10,027 bases of DNA from Nostocaceae cyanobacterium CSSed10_463m (GTDB lineage: Bacteria > Cyanobacteriota > Cyanobacteriia > Cyanobacteriales > Nostocaceae): assembly GCA_003556955.1 (NCBI GenBank), contig PWQB01000307.1, positions 1 through 10,027 of the forward strand. The letters run 5' to 3'. Positions 1 to 10,027 of the stretch are shown here, piece after piece. The first letter of the stretch is position 1, and every line of letters begins with the position of its first letter. Under the pieces are notes generated by a model. That model made no database searches. It was not told the DNA's origin and saw nothing but the letters and a program-made list of their open reading frames with translations. Position numbers and translations under genes: made by a program.

Positions 1-66
1 AGTAGGAGTCCGGACTCGACCGCGATCGCTTGGTTTAATGAAGTTAGAAATAAATGCTATAGACAT
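1..66 (-). CDS. NHLM/NHLP-type peptidase-containing ABC exporter, N-terminal fragment
   Basis: Only the first 22 codons are in the window; the gene continues past the left edge. It starts with ATG at 66, six bases after the stop of the HlyD-like gene, so the two are almost certainly co-translated. The visible peptide ends in KPSDRGRVRTPT. The R-V-R/K-T-P-T segment is what normally precedes the catalytic-Cys motif (LQMEAVECGAA) of the N-terminal C39 peptidase domain in NHLP-family peptidase/permease/ATPase exporters. Such proteins cut leaders after double Gly and export the core peptide. Peptidase, membrane and ATPase domains are all outside the window, so the call rests on this short match plus the position next to its usual HlyD partner. 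A HIP1 octamer (22-29) lies inside the coding sequence. Confidence 0.82.
   Translation of the reverse strand, partial: MSIAFISNFIKPSDRGRVRTPT
22..29. repeat. HIP1 octamer GCGATCGC (one of six)
   Basis: GCGATCGC occurs here and at 2726-2733, 3434-3441, 4342-4349, 8450-8457 and 8496-8503. This palindrome is strongly over-represented in many cyanobacterial genomes. All six copies lie inside coding sequence, so they are a taxonomic marker, not operators. Confidence 0.9.
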
Positions 67-72
67 AATCTG

Positions 73-1695
73 CTAATAAATCCCCGTAATCGACCTAAAA
101 ATCGGAATAACGTAGGCTATTGGTGCTATTTCTCCTACTTTTACCCGAACTTGTACGGTAGTTCCTGGAGACAGTTGGATGTTAGGGCCTGTGGAGGAAG
201 ACCATTGATAGCCACTGTTTGTATCGGCGGTTTGCAATTGGGCAAACACTTGTACAGGGGCATTACCACCGCCTGATACTAAATTTTGAGCCAGATTTTC
301 AGCCAGATTTTGGTTACCGATCATGGTTGACATATCTTGCACTGTTACGGGGAAAGGTGTCACAGTTTGTACCTTGCCTAAAATACCTCCAAATCGTTCT
401 CGCTTGACTAAACTGGGGGTGACTTGAACTTCCATTCCCTCTTTAACTTGTTTGCCATCTTTATCAGCAAAGTAGATGACGCTCATGAGTTTGGCATCAG
501 TACCTTGAGAATTAATTGCTCCCAGGCGAGATCCTCCTGAGACTATTTGCCCTGGAACCACTGATAATTCTAGAATTTTGCCATCATAATCACTGACGAT
601 TTTGCTTTTTAATTCTATTTCGCTTTCTAATTGAGCTATTCTTCTTCTGACATCTGCAATATTATTGTTTCTATTAATCTGAACTTCTAATTCGTCTTGC
701 TCTAACTTGGCTAGTTGACTATTAATTTCTTGCAATTTGCTATTTAGCTCGTCGATTGTATTCAGGCTTTGTTGGTATTGCCTTTCAAGATCAACCTGTT
801 TTACCTGAATTTCTTGCAGTTGCACGTTGAGTTGGTTACTTTGGTTAATACTGTCTAAATACAGTCGTTCTGTATTTACCTGCTCTAGTTCTAGTTGTTT
901 TTGTTGGGCTTCGAGATCAGACAATTGGGCTAGACTATCAAAGTATTCTCTTTGAGCGCCTAACATTACATCAGCACTGACGATTTTTTGCTCATACAAT
1001 CCGCGACGAGCATCTAGCTGGGTTTGTAGTTCTGGTAGTAATTTATTAATTTGTGCTACACGCTCATCAAGACCTTCTCGTTTTTGGGTAATGGAATCGA
1101 AACTTCTTTGACGCAAGCTTGGTAAAACTTTTTGGTCGTTACGCAGTCTTCTTTCAATCACTTCACGACTTTGCTTAAGTAGGATCAAGTTTTGTTGGCG
1201 TAAGGTGGGGATGATCGACTCTCGTTCTAAACTAGCTTTGAGGCTAGCTTGTTGTTTGGCTAGATTGGCTCTTTGTGAAGCCACACTTCTTTGGAGGGCT
1301 GAATTGCTATCTTGTGCTTGAGTTAATAATTCTGCTAACTTATTCTTTTCTTGCTGGAGTTGGTGTTCTAGTCCAGGTTGGCTAATTAGTCCGATGATGT
1401 CTCCTTGTTTGATCTGATCTCCAGATTGAACGTTGAGTTTGATGACTGTCCCATCACTAGGTGCTTGAAATTGAACGACGCTGCGAGGATAAAGCAAAAC
1501 GCCTTGTCCATTAACTGTGAGGGGAAGCCGACCAACGACACTCCAAATTGCGCCGACTGCAACCAAAGACCCCAATCCGGCTAGTGGTAACCAAGCTCTG
1601 GGATTCACCACATTCATGAGCTGGTCTAGTCTTTCTGGTGAGGATAGGCGTTCTAAAGATTCCTCTCGAAATAGTTTTTTGGATGAATCTGACAT
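73..1695 (-). CDS. HlyD-like secretion protein of the NHLM bacteriocin export system
   Basis: This is a periplasmic adaptor (membrane fusion) protein expected to work with the ABC exporter encoded directly downstream. A cytoplasmic N-terminus is followed by one transmembrane segment (about residues 35-55). Next comes the first half of a biotinyl-lipoyl-like barrel (about 72-104, with DGTVIKLNVQSGDQIKQGD), then a long Gln/Leu/Glu-rich coiled coil (about 108-370). The second barrel half follows (about 373-400, with VVPGQIVSGG), then a beta-rich C-terminal domain ending in PIFRSITGIY. The 540-residue length and the conserved C-terminal part match the NHLM system secretion protein group rather than generic type I secretion adaptors. 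The ATG at 1695 directly precedes a polar N-terminus; only a weak AGTGAG (1705-1710) serves as ribosome site. The gene lies 38 bp after the CNBD gene and 6 bp before the exporter, consistent with one operon. Confidence 0.9.
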   Translation of the reverse strand: MSDSSKKLFREESLERLSSPERLDQLMNVVNPRAWLPLAGLGSLVAVGAIWSVVGRLPLTVNGQGVLLYPRSVVQFQAPSDGTVIKLNVQSGDQIKQGDIIGLISQPGLEHQLQQEKNKLAELLTQAQDSNSALQRSVASQRANLAKQQASLKASLERESIIPTLRQQNLILLKQSREVIERRLRNDQKVLPSLRQRSFDSITQKREGLDERVAQINKLLPELQTQLDARRGLYEQKIVSADVMLGAQREYFDSLAQLSDLEAQQKQLELEQVNTERLYLDSINQSNQLNVQLQEIQVKQVDLERQYQQSLNTIDELNSKLQEINSQLAKLEQDELEVQINRNNNIADVRRRIAQLESEIELKSKIVSDYDGKILELSVVPGQIVSGGSRLGAINSQGTDAKLMSVIYFADKDGKQVKEGMEVQVTPSLVKRERFGGILGKVQTVTPFPVTVQDMSTMIGNQNLAENLAQNLVSGGGNAPVQVFAQLQTADTNSGYQWSSSTGPNIQLSPGTTVQVRVKVGEIAPIAYVIPIFRSITGIY

Positions 1696-1733: not shown

Positions 1734-2840
1734 TTAACTGACTTTTAATCGTTTGAGCATCCAGTCAAATCTGGCTCCGCCCAGAGTGAGGTTATCCATG
1801 ACCTCTAAATCAAGCTCGTCTTCATAAGCGGCTTCTAGGTCTAGGCTTTGCCCGATTTGATAACGACTGCGCCCGTATCCTAAACGGCTAATTAGCCCTT
1901 GTAATCTCCCTGAAATTAACATGGAAACAACGCGATAGAAGCGGGCGGATGTGCCTATATCCTGCTGTAATTTGACTAGCAGTTGTTGTTCTGGAATTTT
2001 CAATAAGATGGAATTTTCTAAGGCTTTTAACGTACAGGTTGACATGGGGCTATCTAAGGTGATGGCTTCTCCTACAATTTCGCCTCTGTAGAGACGGATA
2101 ATTTCAGTTTCTAAAGATTCATCTGTTTGTTCATCACTTTCTAGGGCGCTGAAAAGGCTAACAAGTCTGTTAGGTTTTTCTTCTTGCACAAAAACCGCAA
2201 TTGCTCCTTGAAGGATAATGTAAAGATTTTCGATTTGCTGGCCATTGAGAATGAGAATTTCTTCGGCTGATATTTGTGCTAATCTGCCTACCCCTAGCAT
2301 CCAGTCCACATCGCTATCACTGAGTTCACCAAAAATTAATGGTACGTCTTCTAGAGGGGGAATTTGCCCTTTTTTCTGACGCACAAGATATTGGATGAGT
2401 CGCCCAAAACGATCTGAGAGTACAGTTGCTATTCCTTGATAAAGTCGGGATGCAAACCCGAAATCCTCTGCTATTTGCTCTTGGAGTATTTCATGGGGAA
2501 TGGACAGTAAGGTAGAGTTTTCTGTGGCTTTCACAGTCATGGCTGCTGGAGTTAGCTCGATTTGAGATATTTTTCCTATTATTTCTCCAGGAGAGAAATT
2601 GGCAATTTCTTGTTCTAAATCTTGATCTTCCTCCAGGGCAGCAAATACACGCCCTAACCTACCACCTTGATTTTGACTAATGCTTCCTGTGAGTTCGCCA
2701 CTAATAAGCAGGTATAAAAAATCAGGCGATCGCGCCTGATCAATTAACACATCTCCTGCTTGAATGTTTTCCATCTGTCCGTTTTGTTTCAGCCATTGGA
2801 TATCGCTATTACTTAAATGTTTGAGAAAAAGGTCGATCAT
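1734..2840 (-). CDS. Tandem cyclic-nucleotide-binding-fold (Crp-like effector domain) protein, probably ligand-degenerate
   Basis: This 368-residue protein has two Crp-type beta-roll domains, about residues 10-150 and 175-315, and no DNA-binding helix-turn-helix. Each carries the PGEIIG/RGEIVG turn and the following helix. The phosphate-binding cassette is damaged in both. In the first, the normal G-E is G89-K90 and the usual P-R is P98-A99. In the second, G257-E258 is kept but the Arg position is M266. Binding of cAMP or cGMP in the normal way is therefore doubtful; a structural or scaffold role is possible. Similar two-domain proteins accompany NHLM exporters in cyanobacteria, as far as I recall. 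The start is supported by AGGTG (2846-2850) five bases upstream of the ATG. It lies between the predicted peptidase gene (41 bp gap) and the HlyD-like gene. Its role in export is unknown. Confidence 0.8.
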   Translation of the reverse strand: MIDLFLKHLSNSDIQWLKQNGQMENIQAGDVLIDQARSPDFLYLLISGELTGSISQNQGGRLGRVFAALEEDQDLEQEIANFSPGEIIGKISQIELTPAAMTVKATENSTLLSIPHEILQEQIAEDFGFASRLYQGIATVLSDRFGRLIQYLVRQKKGQIPPLEDVPLIFGELSDSDVDWMLGVGRLAQISAEEILILNGQQIENLYIILQGAIAVFVQEEKPNRLVSLFSALESDEQTDESLETEIIRLYRGEIVGEAITLDSPMSTCTLKALENSILLKIPEQQLLVKLQQDIGTSARFYRVVSMLISGRLQGLISRLGYGRSRYQIGQSLDLEAAYEDELDLEVMDNLTLGGARFDWMLKRLKVS

Positions 2841-2881: not shown

Positions 2882-4063
2882 TCACAGGTTAGTGTTTTCA
2901 TCCCATTGAGAAATAAGTTGTTTGGCATCACTAAAGGCTGTTTCTATGTGAGATACTCCTTGTTCAGATGCTATTTCTTCTAGTCTGAGGGTTGTTAAAG
3001 CTATGAATATGGCTATTTCTTCCGATTTTATTCTTGCTAGCTTTTGAGACTTTTGCTCAAACTTTTCCAAATTTTCTGCTGCTGTTTTCACTAGCTTTTG
3101 TAAGACTTGAAACGCCCCTGGGGAAAGTGGCGGTTCGCCCCGATAATTTTCTAATCTGCCTCCTTGACGATAGGTAGGAAAAGCTTCTAAACCGACAAAA
3201 CGTAAAAACCAATCCGCTCGATAATTGCCGATAGCGCTGACGATACCACGATAATCTGCAATTAATTCGTCGAGGATGTTATTTCGCATCGAGCCGAACC
3301 AACGGCGCGTTACATAATGGGTGCATTCGTGTTCTAAACGAATTTTACCAGAGAGTTCTAACCATTGTTGTTCGTCTAGTCCTAACTCACTAGCTTTAAC
3401 GTTGCTATATGTGCCTTTACTCAGCAAAATAAAGCGATCGCGATATAGTTCTGGACGCTGAATTAAATTTTTAAACTCTACTGCCCAATTTAATTGATGA
3501 TTTTGGTGTTGATTTTTGTCAAGCCATTGTTGTTGATATTGCCGCACTCGATGCCAATTGTTATATCCGAATACAATGCAAGAACCCATTGATTCTGGAA
3601 TAGGCGTAGGTTCGTTACGTTTAGTTAAGGCTTGGACTAAGCTGATAAAATCTGGTCGGTTAGCTGCAACTATGACGGGAATTTCACCAGCTAAGGTGGG
3701 ATAAAGATACAGTTGCAGTTTTTCTGGTTGTTGTAAGGTTAACCCTGTGGACATCTGCATTTGCTCAGTTGATTCCCCTTTGCGAGTTGCGGCTCGATAT
3801 TCTGGGGTTTCGCTGATCCCAGCGACAATCGGAAACTGTAACTGAACCAAGTAAGGTTTCAAAGTTGCATAAGCCCCAATGCTATGAGACTCTTCGACAT
3901 ATTGTTTCCAGGTAGCAAGATAAGGTTCACAATGGTTTGGGTGTAAGTTTTCTAGCCGGGGAGGAGTAAAAATATTTTGATTGTAATTAAGCAGTTCCAG
4001 AGTTTCTGACTCACTGGCTCCATAAGCTGTCAAGGTATCGGCACACAATTGTAAAGAAGTCAT
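2882..4063 (-). CDS. Predicted gluzincin-like zinc metallopeptidase of the export operon (uncharacterised family)
   Basis: I do not recognise a characterised family; from memory it may belong to the DUF7005 group (unverified). With the start at 4063 it has 393 residues and no signal peptide. Residues 245-249 read HECTH, a textbook HExxH zinc-protease motif. It is followed after 16 residues by D-E-L-I-A-D (E266, D270), which resembles the NExxxD third-ligand helix of thermolysin-like gluzincins. The N-terminal two-thirds has no motif I know; the C-terminal 80 residues are helical and Lys/Glu-rich. The frame extends upstream to an ATG at 4174, but that would overlap the divergent gene's start codon and cover the promoter at 4097-4125, so M38 of the long frame is preferred. 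First gene of the export operon, it could process the leader, the core or the exporter; the substrate is unknown. Confidence 0.7.
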   Translation of the reverse strand: MTSLQLCADTLTAYGASESETLELLNYNQNIFTPPRLENLHPNHCEPYLATWKQYVEESHSIGAYATLKPYLVQLQFPIVAGISETPEYRAATRKGESTEQMQMSTGLTLQQPEKLQLYLYPTLAGEIPVIVAANRPDFISLVQALTKRNEPTPIPESMGSCIVFGYNNWHRVRQYQQQWLDKNQHQNHQLNWAVEFKNLIQRPELYRDRFILLSKGTYSNVKASELGLDEQQWLELSGKIRLEHECTHYVTRRWFGSMRNNILDELIADYRGIVSAIGNYRADWFLRFVGLEAFPTYRQGGRLENYRGEPPLSPGAFQVLQKLVKTAAENLEKFEQKSQKLARIKSEEIAIFIALTTLRLEEIASEQGVSHIETAFSDAKQLISQWDENTNL

Positions 4064-4096
4064 TGCTACCGCAAAGGCCAAAAAGGTATGTAAGAA

Positions 4097-4125
4097 ATTA
4101 TCATAAATCAAAAAGCTGTTGTAAA
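4097..4125 (-). promoter_or_regulatory. Predicted sigma70-type promoter of the export operon
   Basis: On the minus strand TTTACA (4120-4125) and GATAAT (4097-4102) are separated by exactly 17 bp. This gives a leader of about 27 nt before the ATG at 4063. It would drive the peptidase, CNBD, HlyD and exporter genes, and it argues against translation starting at 4174 or 4162. No strong Shine-Dalgarno sequence is visible before 4063. Confidence 0.6.
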
Positions 4126-4136
4126 ATATACTCTTA

Positions 4137-4142
4137 TATAAT
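4137..4142 (+). promoter_or_regulatory. Candidate -10 box of the ATPase/FHA-GAF operon
   Basis: A perfect TATAAT lies 30 bases upstream of the ATG at 4173. No good -35 hexamer is found 16-18 bp upstream, so an activator or an extended element may be needed. Its upstream side adjoins the opposing promoter (4097-4125), so the two operons may compete or be co-regulated from this short divergent region. No clear Shine-Dalgarno precedes 4173. Confidence 0.45.
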
Positions 4143-4172
4143 ATTTTTGTTACATTCTGCATAGTTAGCCCC

Positions 4173-4949
4173 ATGCCAAAAATTATTTCTATTCACTCTT
4201 ATCGTGGCGGTACTGGTAAATCTAATACCACAGCCAATCTTGCTGCTTTGGTTGCTCGTGAAGGAAATCGTGTTGGCATTATTGATACCGACCTTCCTTC
4301 TCCAGGGATTCATATTTTGTTTGGTTTAGCTGTTAAACAGGGCGATCGCACCCTAAACGATTTCCTCTGGGGTAAGAGTAAAATTAAGGATGCTGCCTAT
4401 GATGTTAGTCATGTCCTAGAAGAATACGAAACTCCCAATAGCAAGCTTTACTTAGTGCCTGCAAGTGTCAAAGTCAATGAAATTTCTCGGATATTAAGAG
4501 AAGGATTTGATACCGAATTGTTATTTTCAGGATATCAGCAGCTAATTAAGGATTTAAAATTAGATTATCTATTTGTGGATACTCATCCTGGTTTGAGTGA
4601 AGAAACGTTACTTTCTTTAGCAGTTTCTCAGGTTGTGCTATTGATATTACGACCAGATAGACAAGATTTTCAGGGAACTGTCGTGACTGTGGATGTGGCG
4701 CGGCGACTCAAAGTCCCTCAAATGTTTCTCATAGTTAATAAAGCTTTACCTGAATACGACTTTGAACAAATGCGCCAACAAGTCTCAGCCACCTACAATT
4801 TGCCTGTTTTGGGTATTTTACCTGACTCTCACGATATGCTGCGTTTAGCTAGTGAAGGGATATTTACGATTAAATATAGAAATCATCCCATTACTGACGT
4901 TATGCAAAACATGGCTAAACAGATTACCAACAAGGCAGTTAAAATTTAA
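4173..4949 (+). CDS. ParA/MinD-type ATPase with variant Walker A motif
   Basis: This 258-residue P-loop ATPase belongs to the SIMIBI class. The Walker A motif is R11-G-G-T-G-K-S17. The overall pattern is that of the deviant ParA/MinD motif (KGGxGKS/T), but the signature lysine is Arg. Residues 35-40 (GIIDTD) form the A' motif, DTHPG (136-140) is the Walker B/switch II region, and V-N-K (188-190) matches the base-contacting strand end. The length is that of a stand-alone MinD/Soj-like protein with no N-terminal DNA-binding domain, and no ParB-like partner is adjacent. Such ATPases usually form patterns on membrane or nucleoid to position protein complexes. It lies 32 bp upstream of the FHA-GAF gene and is divergent from the export operon, so a role in locating the exporter is an inference. 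Confidence 0.85.
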   Translation: MPKIISIHSYRGGTGKSNTTANLAALVAREGNRVGIIDTDLPSPGIHILFGLAVKQGDRTLNDFLWGKSKIKDAAYDVSHVLEEYETPNSKLYLVPASVKVNEISRILREGFDTELLFSGYQQLIKDLKLDYLFVDTHPGLSEETLLSLAVSQVVLLILRPDRQDFQGTVVTVDVARRLKVPQMFLIVNKALPEYDFEQMRQQVSATYNLPVLGILPDSHDMLRLASEGIFTIKYRNHPITDVMQNMAKQITNKAVKI

Positions 4950-4970
4950 ATTAATATCTCCAGAATATCT

Positions 4971-4975
4971 GAGGA
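4971..4975 (+). promoter_or_regulatory. Ribosome binding site fixing a GTG start
   Basis: GAGGA sits six bases before GTG at 4982. This is the best Shine-Dalgarno on this side of the window and supports the GTG as the true start of the FHA-GAF gene. The resulting N-terminus (SYLIYVPET) begins the first FHA strand. Confidence 0.7.
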
Positions 4976-4981
4976 ATTAAG

Positions 4982-6079
4982 GTGTCTTATTTAATCTACG
5001 TTCCTGAAACACCAAATGAAAGAGTTTATGAGTTGAAACCAGGAATCTACTCCATTGGTCGCCAAATAGATAACACTATTGTGCTACTAGAAGACACTGT
5101 ATCTCGTCACCATGCTCAGATTCATGTTACATCTGACGGCGTGACAATTAAGGATTGTGGCAGTAGCAATCATACTTTTGTTAATCAAGTCCAGGTGGAT
5201 GTCTGTCAACTGAATGAAGGTGATCAAGTTGTGTGTGGTACAGTCCCATTTAAATTTGTTCATCACCTGACAACATCCCAGTTAAAACCCATAGATGACA
5301 AAGAATTATTAGGTGACAATTTCAAACAAATTCCTCTCCCCCAAGTTGTAGATCAACTCCAGGATTTGGTGGGTAAGAAATCCAGGCATCAATCAACAAT
5401 CAACTTCACTACTGATAATAGTCAACAACATCTAGTTAACAAACTCAAAATTCTTTTAGAGGTCAGTAAACAACTTTGTTCGACTGACGAACCCGATCAA
5501 CTTCTCCACAAGATTCTCAATATGTTGTTTGAAATTTTGGAAATTGATCGGGCGGCGATTCTCTTAGTAGATGGAGAGTCTCAAGAAATAGAACCAAAAG
5601 CCGTCAAGTCACGAGAGGATATTCATTCTACTCAGGAGTTTTATAGTCGTAAAATTGTTAATCTTGCTTATGAAAGCGGGGATGCAATTATTAGTCAAGA
5701 TCCTCAAGGGGATCAGCGATTTCATGGTTCTGTCTCCATTCTTATAGATGGAATCGAGAATTGTATGTGTGTCCCCCTGAAAAACTATCAAGAAACTATC
5801 GGTGTCTTATACGTCGATAATTTATCTCCTTTTGTTCGTTATACCGAAGAAGATTTAGATTTTTTAAGTGCTTTGGCTAACCAAGCAGCAGCAGCCATTC
5901 ATTTGTATCGTGAATTTCACAAACGAGAACAGAAACTCAAACAACAAGTATTAGCATTGCAAATTCAAATTGACCAATCAAAAAGAGAAAGTGAAGTAGC
6001 TGAGATTGTCGGTGGTGAATATTTTCAAAAGTTACAGCAGAGGGCAGAGCAACTCAGGAACGACCAAGATTTTAGTTAA
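4982..6079 (+). CDS. FHA-GAF domain signalling protein
   Basis: An N-terminal FHA domain (about residues 3-95) shows the phosphothreonine-binding residues: G26-R27, S41-R42-H43-H44, and S62-N63-x-T65-x-x-N68. The Gly usual after N63 is His64. A linker of about 55 residues leads to a GAF domain (about 152-308, with AAILLVDGES, MCVPLKN and GVLYVDN). A coiled-coil tail (about 311-360) follows. There is no output domain: no kinase, cyclase or GGDEF module, although cyanobacterial FHA-GAF proteins often end in an adenylyl/guanylyl cyclase domain. It therefore probably acts by binding a Thr-phosphorylated partner, with the GAF domain sensing a small ligand or dimerising. Start is GTG with GAGGA at 4971-4975. 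It is cotranscribed with the ATPase gene, 32 bp upstream, and the two products plausibly work together. Confidence 0.85.
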   Translation: MSYLIYVPETPNERVYELKPGIYSIGRQIDNTIVLLEDTVSRHHAQIHVTSDGVTIKDCGSSNHTFVNQVQVDVCQLNEGDQVVCGTVPFKFVHHLTTSQLKPIDDKELLGDNFKQIPLPQVVDQLQDLVGKKSRHQSTINFTTDNSQQHLVNKLKILLEVSKQLCSTDEPDQLLHKILNMLFEILEIDRAAILLVDGESQEIEPKAVKSREDIHSTQEFYSRKIVNLAYESGDAIISQDPQGDQRFHGSVSILIDGIENCMCVPLKNYQETIGVLYVDNLSPFVRYTEEDLDFLSALANQAAAAIHLYREFHKREQKLKQQVLALQIQIDQSKRESEVAEIVGGEYFQKLQQRAEQLRNDQDFS

Positions 6080-6131
6080 AAAGATTTAGCTTAATTAAGA
6101 TACAGTGATTTGAAGCAATATATATGAAAAC

Positions 6132-6161
6132 CAGGGTATATGATTTAGTGCATATACCCTG
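6132..6161 (-). terminator. Hairpin between convergent genes, likely intrinsic terminator
   Basis: An 11-bp perfect stem (CAGGGTATATG at 6132-6142 pairing with 6151-6161) has an 8-nt loop. On the minus strand the stem is followed directly by GTTTTC, giving a short U-tract, so it best ends the precursor-peptide transcript. On the plus strand there is no T-run, but it lies about 50 bp after the FHA-GAF stop and could also stop that transcript. The rest of the short gap between 6080 and 6248 shows nothing gene-like. Confidence 0.6.
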
Positions 6162-6248
6162 TAGTTCTGAAACTATTTAATTATGATTTTGAGTAAATCT
6201 CTGAGTGATTCAGCACTAAACTAGCCTACAACCACTATAAAAAAAGAC

Positions 6249-6356
6249 TTACCAACCACCGATCTTAATTTTGATCTTGATGCTACTACTCACACGAACA
6301 AATCTACTAGCAACAGCTTCAAGGTCTTCGTTTGATAATTTTGCTTCTTCTACCTC
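6249..6356 (-). pseudogene. Truncated second Nif11-leader precursor (3' half only)
   Basis: In the frame shifted by -1 from the intact precursor, this stretch encodes VEEAKLSNEDLEAVASR followed by a core-like end SIKIKIKIGGW and TAA. The first 63 bases match the leader end of the intact gene at 56 positions (my count). The 5' two-thirds of the leader is missing, there is no ATG or plausible start, and homology begins at the stop codon of the intact gene. The Gly-Gly processing site is Ser-Arg through two G-to-A changes (GGTGGA to AGTAGA). It looks like a tandem paralogue partly deleted by recombination. Its core alternates Ile and Lys, unlike the Asn-Ile core of the intact gene, though both end in I-G-(G)-W. 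Expression would need a -1 shift or an unusual start, so it is called broken. Confidence 0.75.
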
Positions 6357-6643
6357 CGCCAACCAATGTTAATATTGACTCTCCCGACTCTAATGTTAAT
6401 ATTAGCACTACGAACAAATCCACCAGCAACAGCTTCAAGCTCTTCGTTTGATAGTTCTCCTTCTTCTACTTCAATTCCTTGTTCGGAGATGAAAGCTTGG
6501 GCTTCTTCTTCTGAGAAGTTAAAGCCATTTTCTGCACCAATACTCACAGCTTCAGTATACTCACTAGCATTTTCTAGTTTTTGCCGCAAATTAGGATCTT
6601 CGCTAGCAGCTAGAAACATTCGCTCAAGAGCTTCTTTCGACAT
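6350..6643 (-). CDS. Nif11-like leader RiPP precursor peptide
   Basis: The 97-residue product has a Nif11-type leader (residues 1-75) rich in Glu and Ser, with LERMFLAASEDPNLRQKL near the N-terminus and LSNEELEAVAGG at its end. The double Gly (G74-G75) is the expected cut site for the C39 peptidase of the neighbouring NHLM-type exporter. The core (76-97, 22 residues) is FVRSA, then NINIRVGRVNINI, then GWRR. It is cationic (five Arg), has no Cys, no Thr and one Ser, so it cannot form lanthionines. Alternating polar and beta-branched residues instead recall cores of radical SAM peptide epimerases (PoyD/OspD type), and Arg could be changed to ornithine as in landornamide. No such enzyme is in the window, so modification is inference. 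The ATG is preceded by AGGAG (6652-6656). A decayed second copy lies directly downstream. Confidence 0.88.
   Translation of the reverse strand: MSKEALERMFLAASEDPNLRQKLENASEYTEAVSIGAENGFNFSEEEAQAFISEQGIEVEEGELSNEELEAVAGGFVRSANINIRVGRVNINIGWRR
6365..6403 (-). repeat. Block-repeat A-B-ccc-B-A in the core-peptide coding sequence
   Basis: Plus-strand order is AATGTTAATATT (6365-6376), GACTCT (6377-6382), CCC, GACTCT (6386-6391), AATGTTAATATT (6392-6403). Both pairs are exact direct repeats. The 12-mers are 27 bp apart, a multiple of three, so they encode NINI twice in frame; the 6-mers belong to the RV units. The exactness at DNA level suggests recent internal duplication of the core. Confidence 0.9.
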
Positions 6644-6651
6644 TGTTTTAT

Positions 6652-6656
6652 CTCCT
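6652..6656 (-). promoter_or_regulatory. Ribosome binding site of the Nif11-leader precursor
   Basis: AGGAG on the minus strand ends eight bases before the ATG at 6643. It is among the strongest translation signals in the window and supports this start. Confidence 0.75.
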
Positions 6657-6690
6657 AGTAACTAATTAATGAAATTGAGTTTTATCGTTA

Positions 6691-6714
6691 CTGATTTAAA
6701 TAAATATAAATCAG
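6691..6714. repeat. Palindrome in the precursor's 5' leader, possible operator
   Basis: CTGATTTA (6691-6698) and TAAATCAG (6707-6714) are perfect 8-bp arms around an 8-nt centre. The site lies between the predicted -10 box (6725-6730) and the ribosome site, where a repressor or an RNA hairpin could act. The arms are AT-rich, so chance is possible. Confidence 0.4.
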
Positions 6715-6724
6715 GCATAATCTT

Positions 6725-6753
6725 TTTATAACTCAGAGGTTGTTTGATAGCAA
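6725..6753 (-). promoter_or_regulatory. Predicted promoter of the Nif11-leader precursor
   Basis: On the minus strand TTGCTA (6748-6753) and TATAAA (6725-6730) are spaced by 17 bp, giving a leader of about 75 nt. The -35 match is only partial, which fits a promoter helped by an activator. AAGTT repeats begin eight bases upstream of the -35 box. Confidence 0.5.
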
Positions 6754-6760
6754 TCTCAAG

Positions 6761-6826
6761 AAGTTACTAAAAGTTCAGGAGTTTATCAAAAAAAATTCTG
6801 CAAGTTGAGAAAAGTTATGTAAAGTT
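6761..6826. promoter_or_regulatory. Helically phased AAGTT direct repeats, candidate response-regulator sites
   Basis: AAGTT occurs at 6761, 6771, 6802, 6812 and 6822. Steps within each cluster are exactly 10 bp and the step between clusters is 31 bp, so all lie on about the same face of the helix. Two longer copies, AAGTTACTAAAAGTTCAGG (6761-6779) and AAGTTATGTAAAGTTCAGG (6812-6830), match at 16 of 19 positions. Tandem short repeats with about 10-11 bp period just upstream of a -35 box are typical of OmpR/PhoB-family sites. No known cyanobacterial consensus is matched, so the binding protein is unknown. Confidence 0.5.
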
Positions 6827-6984
6827 CAGGTTCAGCTTGATTGATTAATCTTTGTACTGATGGAGATTGCCAGATTAATTTAAAAATTTACTATTTTCAG
6901 CTACAAAACACTCATATAAGAATCATTTAATCTAAAATGTTTGAAGATAATTGTTTTGTTTATTGCAAATTCTCTAGAAAATTG

Positions 6985-7020
6985 CACCTAATTTTAAATT
7001 ATCTAATAGCAATTTAGGTG
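6985..7020 (-). terminator. Imperfect hairpin downstream of the NB-ARC/WD40 gene
   Basis: CACCTAA (6985-6991) can pair with TTAGGTG (7014-7020) around a 22-nt AT-rich loop; one bulge would extend the stem. It lies about 130 bp past the WD40 gene's stop, on its downstream side, with no clear U-tract. It is a weak terminator candidate. Confidence 0.25.
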
Positions 7021-7150
7021 TTGCTGATTCAAACTTGGGCAAAACGTTGCCATGCTCATAAGTCAACAAACTGCACATTATTTCTACGTTTTTCAAACTC
7101 ATCTGGGTAAGGCTACCGTGTATACTCACAAGTTAAAAACACATTACCAT

Positions 7151-10027
7151 CTAATTCACTGCGCCTAAAAATTTTAAAGCTTCTTTCTGCACATCTGTAA
7201 TGCCTTTTACGTCTTGAATACACATACCTTCATAGGGTCGTTTTGTTCTCAAGGTCTGTAGACATTTTCCTGTGTGAATATCCCACAGTCGCATAGTTTC
7301 ATCTTGTCCGCCACTGACTAGAATTTTACCATCGGGACTAAATGCCACAGACCACACCCAACTATGATGAGCTGGTATTGTGAGTTGACATTTACCTGTT
7401 TTGAGATTCCAAAGTTTCACGCTTTGGTCGCAACTACCACTAGCTAAAATTTTACCATCAGGACTAAATGCTACTGATTGTACCCAACTGCTATGTCCTC
7501 GTAACGTTTTTAAACATTCCCCGGTGGCGACATCCCATAAACGAATTGTACAATCGCAACTGGCACTGGCTAAAAGTTTACCATCAGGACTAAAAAAGAT
7601 GCCTTGTACCCAGCTAGTATGTCCCACGAGGGTGTTTATACAGTTACCTGTGTTAATATCCCACAATTTAATGGTTTTGTCTTCAGAAGCACTTGCTAAA
7701 ATAGTTCCATCAGGACTAAATTGAACTGACCACAGCCAACCCTCATGTCCTTGTAGAGTTTTTATACAGTTACCTGTGATTATATCCCATAATTTCACGG
7801 TGTAGTCACCACTGCAACTGGCTAAAGTCAGTCCATTCGTACTAAAAGCTACAGAACCAATCCAACGGCGGTGTCCCTGTAGTGTCTTCAGGCATTGACC
7901 TGTATTGACATCCCACAGTTTTATACTATAGTCGCTGCTGCCACTAGCCAGATGTTTGCCATCAGGACTAAAAGCCACGGAACACACCCATCCGCGATGT
8001 CCTTCTAAAACTATGGAATGAGGCGAAGTTTCTGAAGATTGCGCTGTTTCCAAATTCCACAATCGGATGGTTTTATCTTCACTACCACTGGCTAGGGTTT
8101 TGCCATCAGGACTGAAGGCGACTGATTGAATCCAACTACCATAACCTTGCCAAATATCAATACAGCTACCGGTGCTGACTTCCCACAGTCGTACTGAGCG
8201 ATCTTCTCCAGCTGTGGCTAGAATTGTACCATTGGGACTAAAGGCCACTGAGGTGAGCAGACTATTATGACCGTGGAGGTTTTTCAGGCATTGTCCATCA
8301 GCAATACTCCAAAGTCTGGCTGTGTGATCGCCACTGCCACTAGCTACCAGCTTACCATCAGGACTAAAGGCGACTGAGCGCAATCTTTGGCTATGTCCTG
8401 TGAATGTTTTCACACATTTGCCAGTACTAGTTTCCCAAATTTTCAGTGTGCGATCGCCACTACCACTAGCTAAGAGTTTACCATCAGGACTAAAGGCGAT
8501 CGCCCGTATCCAACGGTTATGTCCTGATAGGGTTTGCAAACATTCCCCTGTATCCGCATCCCACAGTTTAATAGTTTTATCTTCACTACCACTAGCAATT
8601 ATGCTGCCATCGGGGGAGAAAGCAACAGACCAAATAAAATTTTCGTGTCCTGACAGGACTTTAAAACATTCACCACTGTTAGCATCCCAAAGTCTAATGG
8701 TGGTATCGCTGCTGCCACTGGCAATTATACTACCATCAGGACTAAAGGCCACTGAACGTACTCGCTGATGATGTCCTGTGAGTGTTTTTAAACAACTACC
8801 ATCGAATACATCCCATAATTTTACTGTATGGTCGCTGCTGGCACTACAAAGCATTTTGCCGTTGGGACTAAAACTAATTGAATGTACCCAACCTGCGTGT
8901 CCTTTACAACTAAGGACTGCCTGGCCGTTATCAATTTGCCAGAGGTGAATTTCCCCATTCACATCTCCAGTAGCTAATAGTTTGCCATTGTCGCTAAAAG
9001 CCAAAGATAAAATGCTAGTTAACTGTTTAGCAAATACTGATTGACTCAGATCAGTACGAGTAAAGTTAACATTTTGTAAATTGATTTTTTGTAAACAAGC
9101 CGACCAAACAGTTAAATCAGAGAAGTCATAGCCACTCAGTTCAACTTGTAATTGACATAAGATATTAATCAGATTTCCAGCCGCATATCCTGGCTCTAAG
9201 GCTGTATTTTCTCGCAAATTTACCAGGATGCTTTGAAATTTAATTTCAATTTTATGCAAACTTTTGTACAAGGTTAAGAGTTGGTCAGCTAAAGGTTTTA
9301 TAAATAGCTGAATTTGTCCTTGCTTCACATACTCTTTTGCTTCTGATTTGAGTAAAGGGTATTGATTTAGTAAAACTATATTTTCTGATTCTATCTCCTC
9401 CAGAAGTTCTTGAATTATCTTATTTTGTAAATATTCTCTAACAACAGGCTGTAAAAAGAACTTTTTATTTTTTTTCTCCAACAGAGAACGATGTAACAGT
9501 GACCGAATAGTTTCACTAATGACTTGAGGGGGTATTTCGGGAATATATATGGATTTTAAAGCATTTTGATCAAATTGTTCTTGTTCTAGAGTTAACCAGT
9601 ATAAAAATTTCTTTTCTGAAGCAGGTAAACGATTAAATTGTTGTTCTAGAACCTCATTAATTTCTCCGGGAATGAACAATTTACTTTTGAGAAGATCGGA
9701 AATATTCCCATTATATAAATCCTTAGCAATGGCGGCGATAATTTTTAAAGCTAAAGGATTACCGCTATATTTTTCAATAAACTCTTGTAAACATAATTCT
9801 GATTCGAGGAAACATCCTTTTACTTGTAAAAGTTGTTGTCCAGCTTGCAAAGTTAATCCTGCTAATTTGAAACAACGAACAGGTAATGTTTCTCCTTGCA
9901 TGAAGCTAATTTCTTTAGGTTTTTCTCGTGTAGTCAAGAGTAAGCAACTGTTATGCTGGCGTTGTCCTAAAGCTTGAAAAAATGTTCTGTAGTTTTCATA
10001 GCCTTGTTGATATTGTCCTGCTAAAAC
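7151..10027 (-). CDS. NB-ARC/WD40 STAND-type protein, C-terminal 958 residues
   Basis: The frame is open to the right edge, so the start and P-loop are outside; an apparent start at 9937 is an internal TTG, since the preceding 30 codons are uninterrupted and fit the family. Numbered from the window edge, residues 28-34 (CLLLTTR) are the NB-ARC RNBS-B/sensor motif and GNPLAL (about 89-94) is the GLPLA-like motif. A winged-helix region follows (about 125-205, with LPASEKKFLYWL). Next is a helical linker ending in a short pentapeptide-like stretch (about 317-332). Fourteen WD40 repeats (about 336-930) would form two seven-bladed propellers. The tail RPYEGMCIQDVKGITDVQKE is shared by many cyanobacterial proteins of this design. 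Members are thought to be ligand-sensing switches that oligomerise; the N-terminal effector domain is not visible. It is transcribed toward the precursor gene, 507 bp away. Confidence 0.88.
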   Translation of the reverse strand, partial: VLAGQYQQGYENYRTFFQALGQRQHNSCLLLTTREKPKEISFMQGETLPVRCFKLAGLTLQAGQQLLQVKGCFLESELCLQEFIEKYSGNPLALKIIAAIAKDLYNGNISDLLKSKLFIPGEINEVLEQQFNRLPASEKKFLYWLTLEQEQFDQNALKSIYIPEIPPQVISETIRSLLHRSLLEKKNKKFFLQPVVREYLQNKIIQELLEEIESENIVLLNQYPLLKSEAKEYVKQGQIQLFIKPLADQLLTLYKSLHKIEIKFQSILVNLRENTALEPGYAAGNLINILCQLQVELSGYDFSDLTVWSACLQKINLQNVNFTRTDLSQSVFAKQLTSILSLAFSDNGKLLATGDVNGEIHLWQIDNGQAVLSCKGHAGWVHSISFSPNGKMLCSASSDHTVKLWDVFDGSCLKTLTGHHQRVRSVAFSPDGSIIASGSSDTTIRLWDANSGECFKVLSGHENFIWSVAFSPDGSIIASGSEDKTIKLWDADTGECLQTLSGHNRWIRAIAFSPDGKLLASGSGDRTLKIWETSTGKCVKTFTGHSQRLRSVAFSPDGKLVASGSGDHTARLWSIADGQCLKNLHGHNSLLTSVAFSPNGTILATAGEDRSVRLWEVSTGSCIDIWQGYGSWIQSVAFSPDGKTLASGSEDKTIRLWNLETAQSSETSPHSIVLEGHRGWVCSVAFSPDGKHLASGSSDYSIKLWDVNTGQCLKTLQGHRRWIGSVAFSTNGLTLASCSGDYTVKLWDIITGNCIKTLQGHEGWLWSVQFSPDGTILASASEDKTIKLWDINTGNCINTLVGHTSWVQGIFFSPDGKLLASASCDCTIRLWDVATGECLKTLRGHSSWVQSVAFSPDGKILASGSCDQSVKLWNLKTGKCQLTIPAHHSWVWSVAFSPDGKILVSGGQDETMRLWDIHTGKCLQTLRTKRPYEGMCIQDVKGITDVQKEALKFLGAVN
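7238..9022 (-). repeat. Fourteen tandem 126-bp units encoding WD40 blades
   Basis: Thirteen units are 42 codons long; unit 8 is 48 codons through an insertion (AQSSETSPHS). The unit consensus is W-x-x-S-V-A-F-S-P-D-G-K-x-L-A-S-G-S-x-D-x-T-I-K-L-W-D, then T-G-x-C-L-x-T-L-x-G-H. The DNA itself is repetitive: plus-strand CCATCAGGACTAAA recurs with the 126-bp period. This makes the array prone to unit gain, loss and conversion. Units 1, 7 and 10 are the most diverged. Confidence 0.9.

Follow-up and report, generated by a model that had tools for sequence, protein, structure and literature searches.

We report that a protein of the Pfam family DUF7005 (PF22541), encoded in a 10,027-nucleotide stretch of the genome of Nostocaceae cyanobacterium CSSed10_463m (contig PWQB01000307.1; the whole stretch is called the window below), is firmly linked to the export of double-Gly peptides and, more generally, to ribosomally synthesized and post-translationally modified peptides (RiPPs). 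Judged from its sequence, it has the anatomy of a single-metal gluzincin, and we regard it as a probable metallopeptidase-like companion of peptide export; the family is known in Pfam, and the peptidase role is a new proposal. Tentatively, and with a probability that we place somewhat below even, DUF7005 would be a new family of zinc peptidases performing a dedicated second cytosolic proteolytic step on double-Gly (Nif11, NHLP) precursors or leaders, with any core chemistry, from LanM-bearing picocyanobacteria to filamentous cyanobacteria to Bacteroidota.

The match to the DUF7005 profile (Table 1) covers positions 2-361 of 361. The initial annotation of the window had called the protein unrecognised, which is apt for its function, unassigned in Pfam, and not for the family, already present there. 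The longest open reading frame (ORF) over the gene (2882-4174, reverse strand) encodes 430 aa. A start at 4063, giving 393 aa, is likelier because the homologue P0002 (84% identical to the window protein) is 393 aa long and because residues 1-32 of the 430-aa ORF have a predicted local distance difference test (pLDDT) value below 50 in AlphaFold. The same start had been chosen initially and is preferred here; the 37-residue extension was discarded on these grounds, and with it a secreted or membrane form of DUF7005. Residue numbers in Table 1 follow the 393-aa form, while those in the text follow the 430-aa ORF (393-aa form plus 37).

The HECTH and DELIAD motifs are encoded where they had first been placed (residues 245-249 and following in the 393-aa form). 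The thermolysin-type arrangement suggested for them agrees in kind (HExxH...ExxxD) and differs in spacing, since 16 residues separate the second His of HExxH from the Glu of ExxxD in the window protein and 19 in thermolysin. When the 393-aa protein was shuffled 20,000 times, HExxH was present in 1.7% of the shuffled sequences, and HExxH followed by ExxxD 12-25 residues on in 0.08%. Conservation was assessed in an alignment of the window protein with 323 homologues listed from searches that matched 1950, 356 and 527 proteins (hits clustered at 90% identity), to which the following counts refer. The motif, whose loss in homologues had been named as a refuting result, survived: H282, E283, H286, D302, E303 and D307 are identical in 324/324 sequences, as are D175, F176, Y256, S275, R279, G328, R340 and Y344. 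H282 and H286 are the sole His among positions at least 97% identical. A stricter pattern (R.EHE..H, 15 residues, DE..AD) is kept by 316 of the 323 homologues, and the seven departures sit at E281 or A306, never at the candidate ligands. Identity to the window protein across the catalytic region ranges from 25 to 95% (71 of the listed homologues). The motif is also retained in nine picocyanobacterial members taken from genomes (local identity 25-34%), and in a Spirosoma protein together with seven more homologues found with it.

Models of DUF7005 had pLDDT values of 85.8 and 91.0. They place HExxH and ExxxD on successive predicted helices preceded by four strands, read here for helix order only, and this predicted two-helix layout is consistent with a gluzincin. 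When the full model was compared with known structures in VIA, the top seven rows were metallopeptidases, the resemblance being weak. For the domain model, 13 of the 50 rows listed align at least 150 residues, and 12 of these are HExxH metallopeptidases, with 8wde_D, 8p2x_A and 8hxk_A counted as such by inference from title and chain length. A Foldseek search of the PDB gave no usable match for the models. The initial reading as a gluzincin-like metallopeptidase is partly supported by the conserved HExxH...ExxxD, the predicted helix layout, the weak structural resemblance and the link to double-Gly export; metal binding, peptidase activity and substrate are putative.

Several other assignments were considered and rejected. 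A known peptidase family was discarded by sequence, as no match was obtained in Pfam or NCBIfam; the window protein had no NCBIfam match at E 0.1, and by sequence it matched no chain of the PDB below E 0.4. M1, alone among the peptidase families that the VIA comparison brought up, was compared by profile, and gave no Pfam match and no significant comparison: hhalign against 11 cyanobacterial M1-like sequences returned a probability of 0.95% and a P of 0.057, in an alignment that keeps HExxH and the Glu in register. A family restricted to cyanobacteria is ruled out by the Spirosoma plasmid and by Bacteroidota homologues. Phage origin was rejected, the window protein having no match in phages and the Spirosoma protein none in viral contigs, and so was anti-phage defence, for which PADLOC gave no match to DUF7005. 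We also observed a 642-aa database protein (P0158) in which a picocyanobacterial-type DUF7005 runs in one frame into a GNAT acetyltransferase-like part (PF00583), a possible fusion.

The genomic distribution of DUF7005 points to peptide export. Among 291 cyanobacterial genomes, DUF7005 was found in 13 (in one as a fragment only), NHLM ABC2 in 21 and LanM in 24, the latter two over cut-off. NHLM ABC2 is present in 9 of the 13 DUF7005 genomes (Fisher value 5e-9), LanM in 10 (5e-10), and one or the other in 12; DUF7005 was not found in 12 of the 21 NHLM genomes. In the picocyanobacterial family (151 genomes), DUF7005 occurs in 9 genomes, LanM in 9 and both in 7 (4e-9; 2e-7 when restricted to the 74 genomes of at least 2.1 Mb), although all these Fisher values overstate the significance because the species share ancestry. 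A single unrelated control gene, Cas1, was found in 10 of the 151 genomes and in none of the 9 with DUF7005. In this family, the median number of Nif11-leader matches is 18 for genomes with DUF7005 (copies counted as at least 36 in three of them) vs 3 in the other 142 genomes and 6 in the other 65 of at least 2.1 Mb.

Outside the picocyanobacteria, we compared 38 loci (5 on genome contigs, 3 on plasmids, 8 found by scanning the phylum and 22 by scanning an order), in stretches of 10.8-31 kb with genes assigned by homology. Not counted among them are the fragment locus L040, the 9 picocyanobacterial loci, a broken copy in genome G498, a partial second copy in G447, and plasmid NZ_CP117772, taken as the same plasmid that holds L028. 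At least one exporter, cyclic nucleotide monophosphate (cNMP)-binding protein, LanM or Nif11 gene lies nearby in 34 of the 38; the four loci with none of these are L030, L113, L114 and L123, the DUF7005 copy of the last appearing as two pieces in the scan. NHLM exporter genes occur in 28 loci, the cNMP protein in 30, MinD in 26, a Nif11 precursor in 18 and LanM in 8. The MinD of L078 (seen in L076) is not in the MinD count because L078 ends directly behind DUF7005. In 25/38 loci, the next gene downstream on the same strand, at most 700 bp away, encodes the cNMP protein, and in 21/38 the upstream neighbour is MinD (17 on the same strand, 4 divergent). The companion enzymes vary by locus, and comprise LanM, a radical SAM maturase with TOMM-type genes, or an FAD oxidase with a Trp halogenase. 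On the Spirosoma plasmid the order is LanM, cNMP protein, TolC, HlyD, C39-ABC, ABC2 and DUF7005, and three precursors are annotated as NHLP type. The association therefore spans two phyla (Bacteroidota with one locus) and both types of leader, and is seen with various gene orders and core chemistries. This variety of modifying enzymes and leader types indicates that the shared element is the double-Gly leader peptide system and not one core chemistry.

Three loci hold features of their own. In L002, the region 3266-7902 next to the DUF7005 operon encodes four Nif11 precursors, whose cores contain Trp/Arg and no Cys, and behind them an FAD-binding oxidase (PF01565) and a Trp halogenase (PF04820); this may be a halogenated Nif11 peptide system. 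In L028 (6608-8422, forward strand), a dCache-HAMP sensor protein with an N-terminal Nif11 domain is encoded immediately upstream of MinD and DUF7005. The fragment in L040 (9863-10132, reverse strand) is an 89-aa N-terminal piece of DUF7005 between exporter genes, suggesting gene decay.

The picocyanobacterial loci are organized differently. At the thresholds used, none of the nine (two of them short stretches of 6 and 11 kb) contains cNMP, MinD, HlyD or NHLM ABC genes; a different ABC transporter lies nearby in L036 and L038. Nif11-type ORFs were detected in 3 of the 9 loci: four with Cys-containing cores 7-9 kb from DUF7005 in L056, Nif11-like stretches at 3-4 kb, some with stops, in L054, and one ORF at 5.5 kb in L053. 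In five of the nine genomes nothing scored above the TIGR03896 cut-off, which shows that DUF7005 does not have the cNMP protein as an obligate partner.

Cleavage at the double-Gly site appears to be provided by the exporter itself. The catalytic residues of C39, Cys, His and Asp, are present in 11/11 aligned C39-ABC exporters (part of the matches found in 22 of the 38 loci, and one from L040, where DUF7005 is a fragment). A replacement of C39 by DUF7005 was rejected on this basis, and any proteolysis by DUF7005 would be additional. Because C39 passes the core on to the transporter after cutting, the uncut precursor and the leader that remains are both within reach of an enzyme in the cytosol. 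We consider the chances about even that DUF7005 is a cytosolic single-metal peptidase of gluzincin type that serves double-Gly export by acting on the leader or precursor; metal, peptidase chemistry, location, substrate and timing are all inferred. In such a mechanism, Zn would be held by both HExxH His residues together with the ExxxD Glu, water would be activated by the HExxH Glu, and the ExxxD Asp would orient a His, with the invariant Arg340 and Tyr344 as candidates for polarising the substrate. The enzyme might act on the full-length precursor before C39 or on the remaining leader after it. Nif11 and NHLP leaders would then be shortened or destroyed, or unexported precursors culled, and the exporter and modifying enzymes would be kept free of bound leader.

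The gene neighbourhoods could also be read as those of a regulatory metallopeptidase, whose substrate would be an exporter component or regulator (the cNMP protein, HlyD, MinD or FHA) and which would switch export. The frequent position of MinD upstream (21/38) and of the cNMP gene downstream (25/38) outside the picocyanobacteria fits such a role, as do 4-bp overlaps of the DUF7005 ORF with MinD in L028 (longest-ORF starts) and with the cNMP gene in Pseudanabaena, and a cyclase gene within the Spirosoma cluster. However, the picocyanobacterial loci lack cNMP, MinD and NHLM genes within the limits given above, and DUF7005 tracks LanM and precursor number in that family even though five of its nine DUF7005 genomes are without TIGR03896. 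We therefore regard exporter regulation as rather unlikely. Action on the leader or precursor is favoured over it because the three clades share the double-Gly leader system, while cNMP and MinD are not beside the picocyanobacterial members.

Two further explanations concern the chemistry of the fold. Passages of PMC12636437 describe HEXXH 'metallopeptidases' of other RiPP clusters that turned out to be alpha-ketoglutarate enzymes with a zincin-like fold, and for this reason an oxidative role deserves respect: DUF7005 would be an Fe/alpha-ketoglutarate-dependent HExxH protein of zincin-like fold, hydroxylating or oxidatively cleaving the precursor like PflC, PosC and ChlH. The corresponding profile TIGR04267 matched none of the 49 DUF7005 members scanned (E up to 10), and the one cyanobacterial TIGR04267 protein found (in 1/146 genomes) has HEAGH without a Glu at +17 and without ExxxD there. 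Together with the restriction of strongly conserved His to H282 and H286, this makes oxidation very improbable. Alternatively, DUF7005 could be an inactive or non-peptidase protein of zincin fold that binds leaders or serves in structure, which would agree with the weak structural matches, and no activity is known for DUF7005; on the other hand, the candidate catalytic Glu is kept in 324/324 sequences, just like the candidate ligands, and we consider such a role improbable as well. Peptidase action on leaders or precursors remains our preferred reading.

Within the window, the DUF7005 gene is the first of a leftward gene run that continues with the cNMP protein, the NHLM HlyD protein and the first codons of the C39 exporter (Table 1), with intergenic gaps of 41, 38 and 6 bp, respectively. 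ABC2 and most of C39-ABC would fall beyond the window edge, and both were found in 4 of the 5 closest loci. The RiPP locus that the initial annotation had seen here is borne out by the HlyD (TIGR03794), cNMP (TIGR03896), Nif11 precursor (TIGR03798) and C39 exporter genes. Behind the Nif11 precursor (6249-6356, reverse strand) there is a second, leaderless precursor-like tail, EVEEAKLSNEDLEAVASRFVRVSSSIKIKIKIGGW, in which SR replaces GG and which looks like a decayed copy. A large protein with 14 WD40 stretches (7151-10027, reverse strand) is open at the window edge; a WD40 gene lies near DUF7005 also in L003, L031 and L035.

Table 1. Features of the window, with residues numbered in the 393-aa form of the DUF7005 protein
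Feature	Coordinates	Strand	Evidence
DUF7005 protein, 393 aa, candidate cytosolic gluzincin-like metallopeptidase	2882..4063	-	PF22541 541 bits, cut-off 27
HECTH motif, two candidate metal-binding His and candidate catalytic Glu (H245, E246, H249)	3317..3331	-	sequence; H, E, H kept 324/324
DELIAD, candidate third metal ligand Glu and second-shell Asp (D265, E266, D270)	3254..3271	-	sequence; D, E, D kept 324/324
cNMP-binding bacteriocin-type transport-associated protein, next gene downstream	1734..2840	-	TIGR03896 267 bits, cut-off 161
NHLM-type HlyD secretion protein	73..1695	-	TIGR03794 333 bits, cut-off 156
C39-ABC exporter, first 22 codons, cut by window edge	1..66	-	translation MSIAFISNFIKPSDRGRVRTPT matches N-termini of relatives' C39-ABC proteins
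MinD/ParA-like ATPase, divergent neighbour	4173..4949	+	AAA_31 and ParA matches; minD_arch TIGR01969 below cut-off
FHA-GAF protein	4982..6079	+	PF00498 and PF01590 over cut-off
Nif11-leader double-Gly precursor peptide, core FVRSANINIRVGRVNINIGWRR without Cys	6350..6643	-	TIGR03798 45.9 bits, cut-off 32.3

Some cyanobacteria have dozens of Nif11 precursors and one or few LanM enzymes and C39 exporters, and to our knowledge the fate of the Nif11 leaders in them has not been described. A conserved metallopeptidase-like companion would be a directly testable candidate for that fate. If the proposal is true, a Pfam family for which a single search found 1950 clustered homologues would gain a function, and peptide engineering might gain a leader-specific protease; if DUF7005 is instead an oxygenase, it would be a new peptide-modifying family. 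A word search of the literature, in which synonyms were not exhaustively covered, gave no paper mentioning 'DUF7005' and none pairing 'bacteriocin-type transport-associated protein' with cyanobacteria. Cyanobacterial bacteriocin clusters are treated in parts of PMC3140520, PMC10783134, PMC13060382 and PMC2887384.

Among the known systems closest to DUF7005 are the gluzincins of clan MA, which include thermolysin (M4), M1, M9, M30, M36 and M49. DUF7005 resembles them in its HExxH with a downstream Glu and then Asp, each motif on a predicted helix, and in the best-scoring domain-length structure matches of its models; it differs in lacking significant sequence or Foldseek similarity and in the spacing mentioned above. 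The TIGR04267 alpha-ketoglutarate HExxH peptide hydroxylases, for which passages of PMC12636437 report a zincin-like fold, also bring HExxH into RiPP loci, and differ in that their profile does not match DUF7005 and the ExxxD pattern is missing from the single example compared. The NHLM export cluster (TIGR03794/03796/03797), as outlined in parts of Haft et al. (PMC2887384), has the same transporter genes that surround DUF7005 in most loci outside the picocyanobacteria; in a word search, the main text of that paper used neither 'metallo' nor 'HExxH'. RiPP leader metalloproteases in excerpts of a review (PMC10885120) belong to M1 (AplP), M16, M61, M103 (TldD/E) and M50, and DUF7005 is not named among them in these excerpts. 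Unlike them, DUF7005 falls in none of the Pfam or NCBIfam peptidase families and stands beside intact C39 exporters. These reviewed enzymes remove or trim leaders, and thus offer a precedent for the role proposed here for DUF7005.
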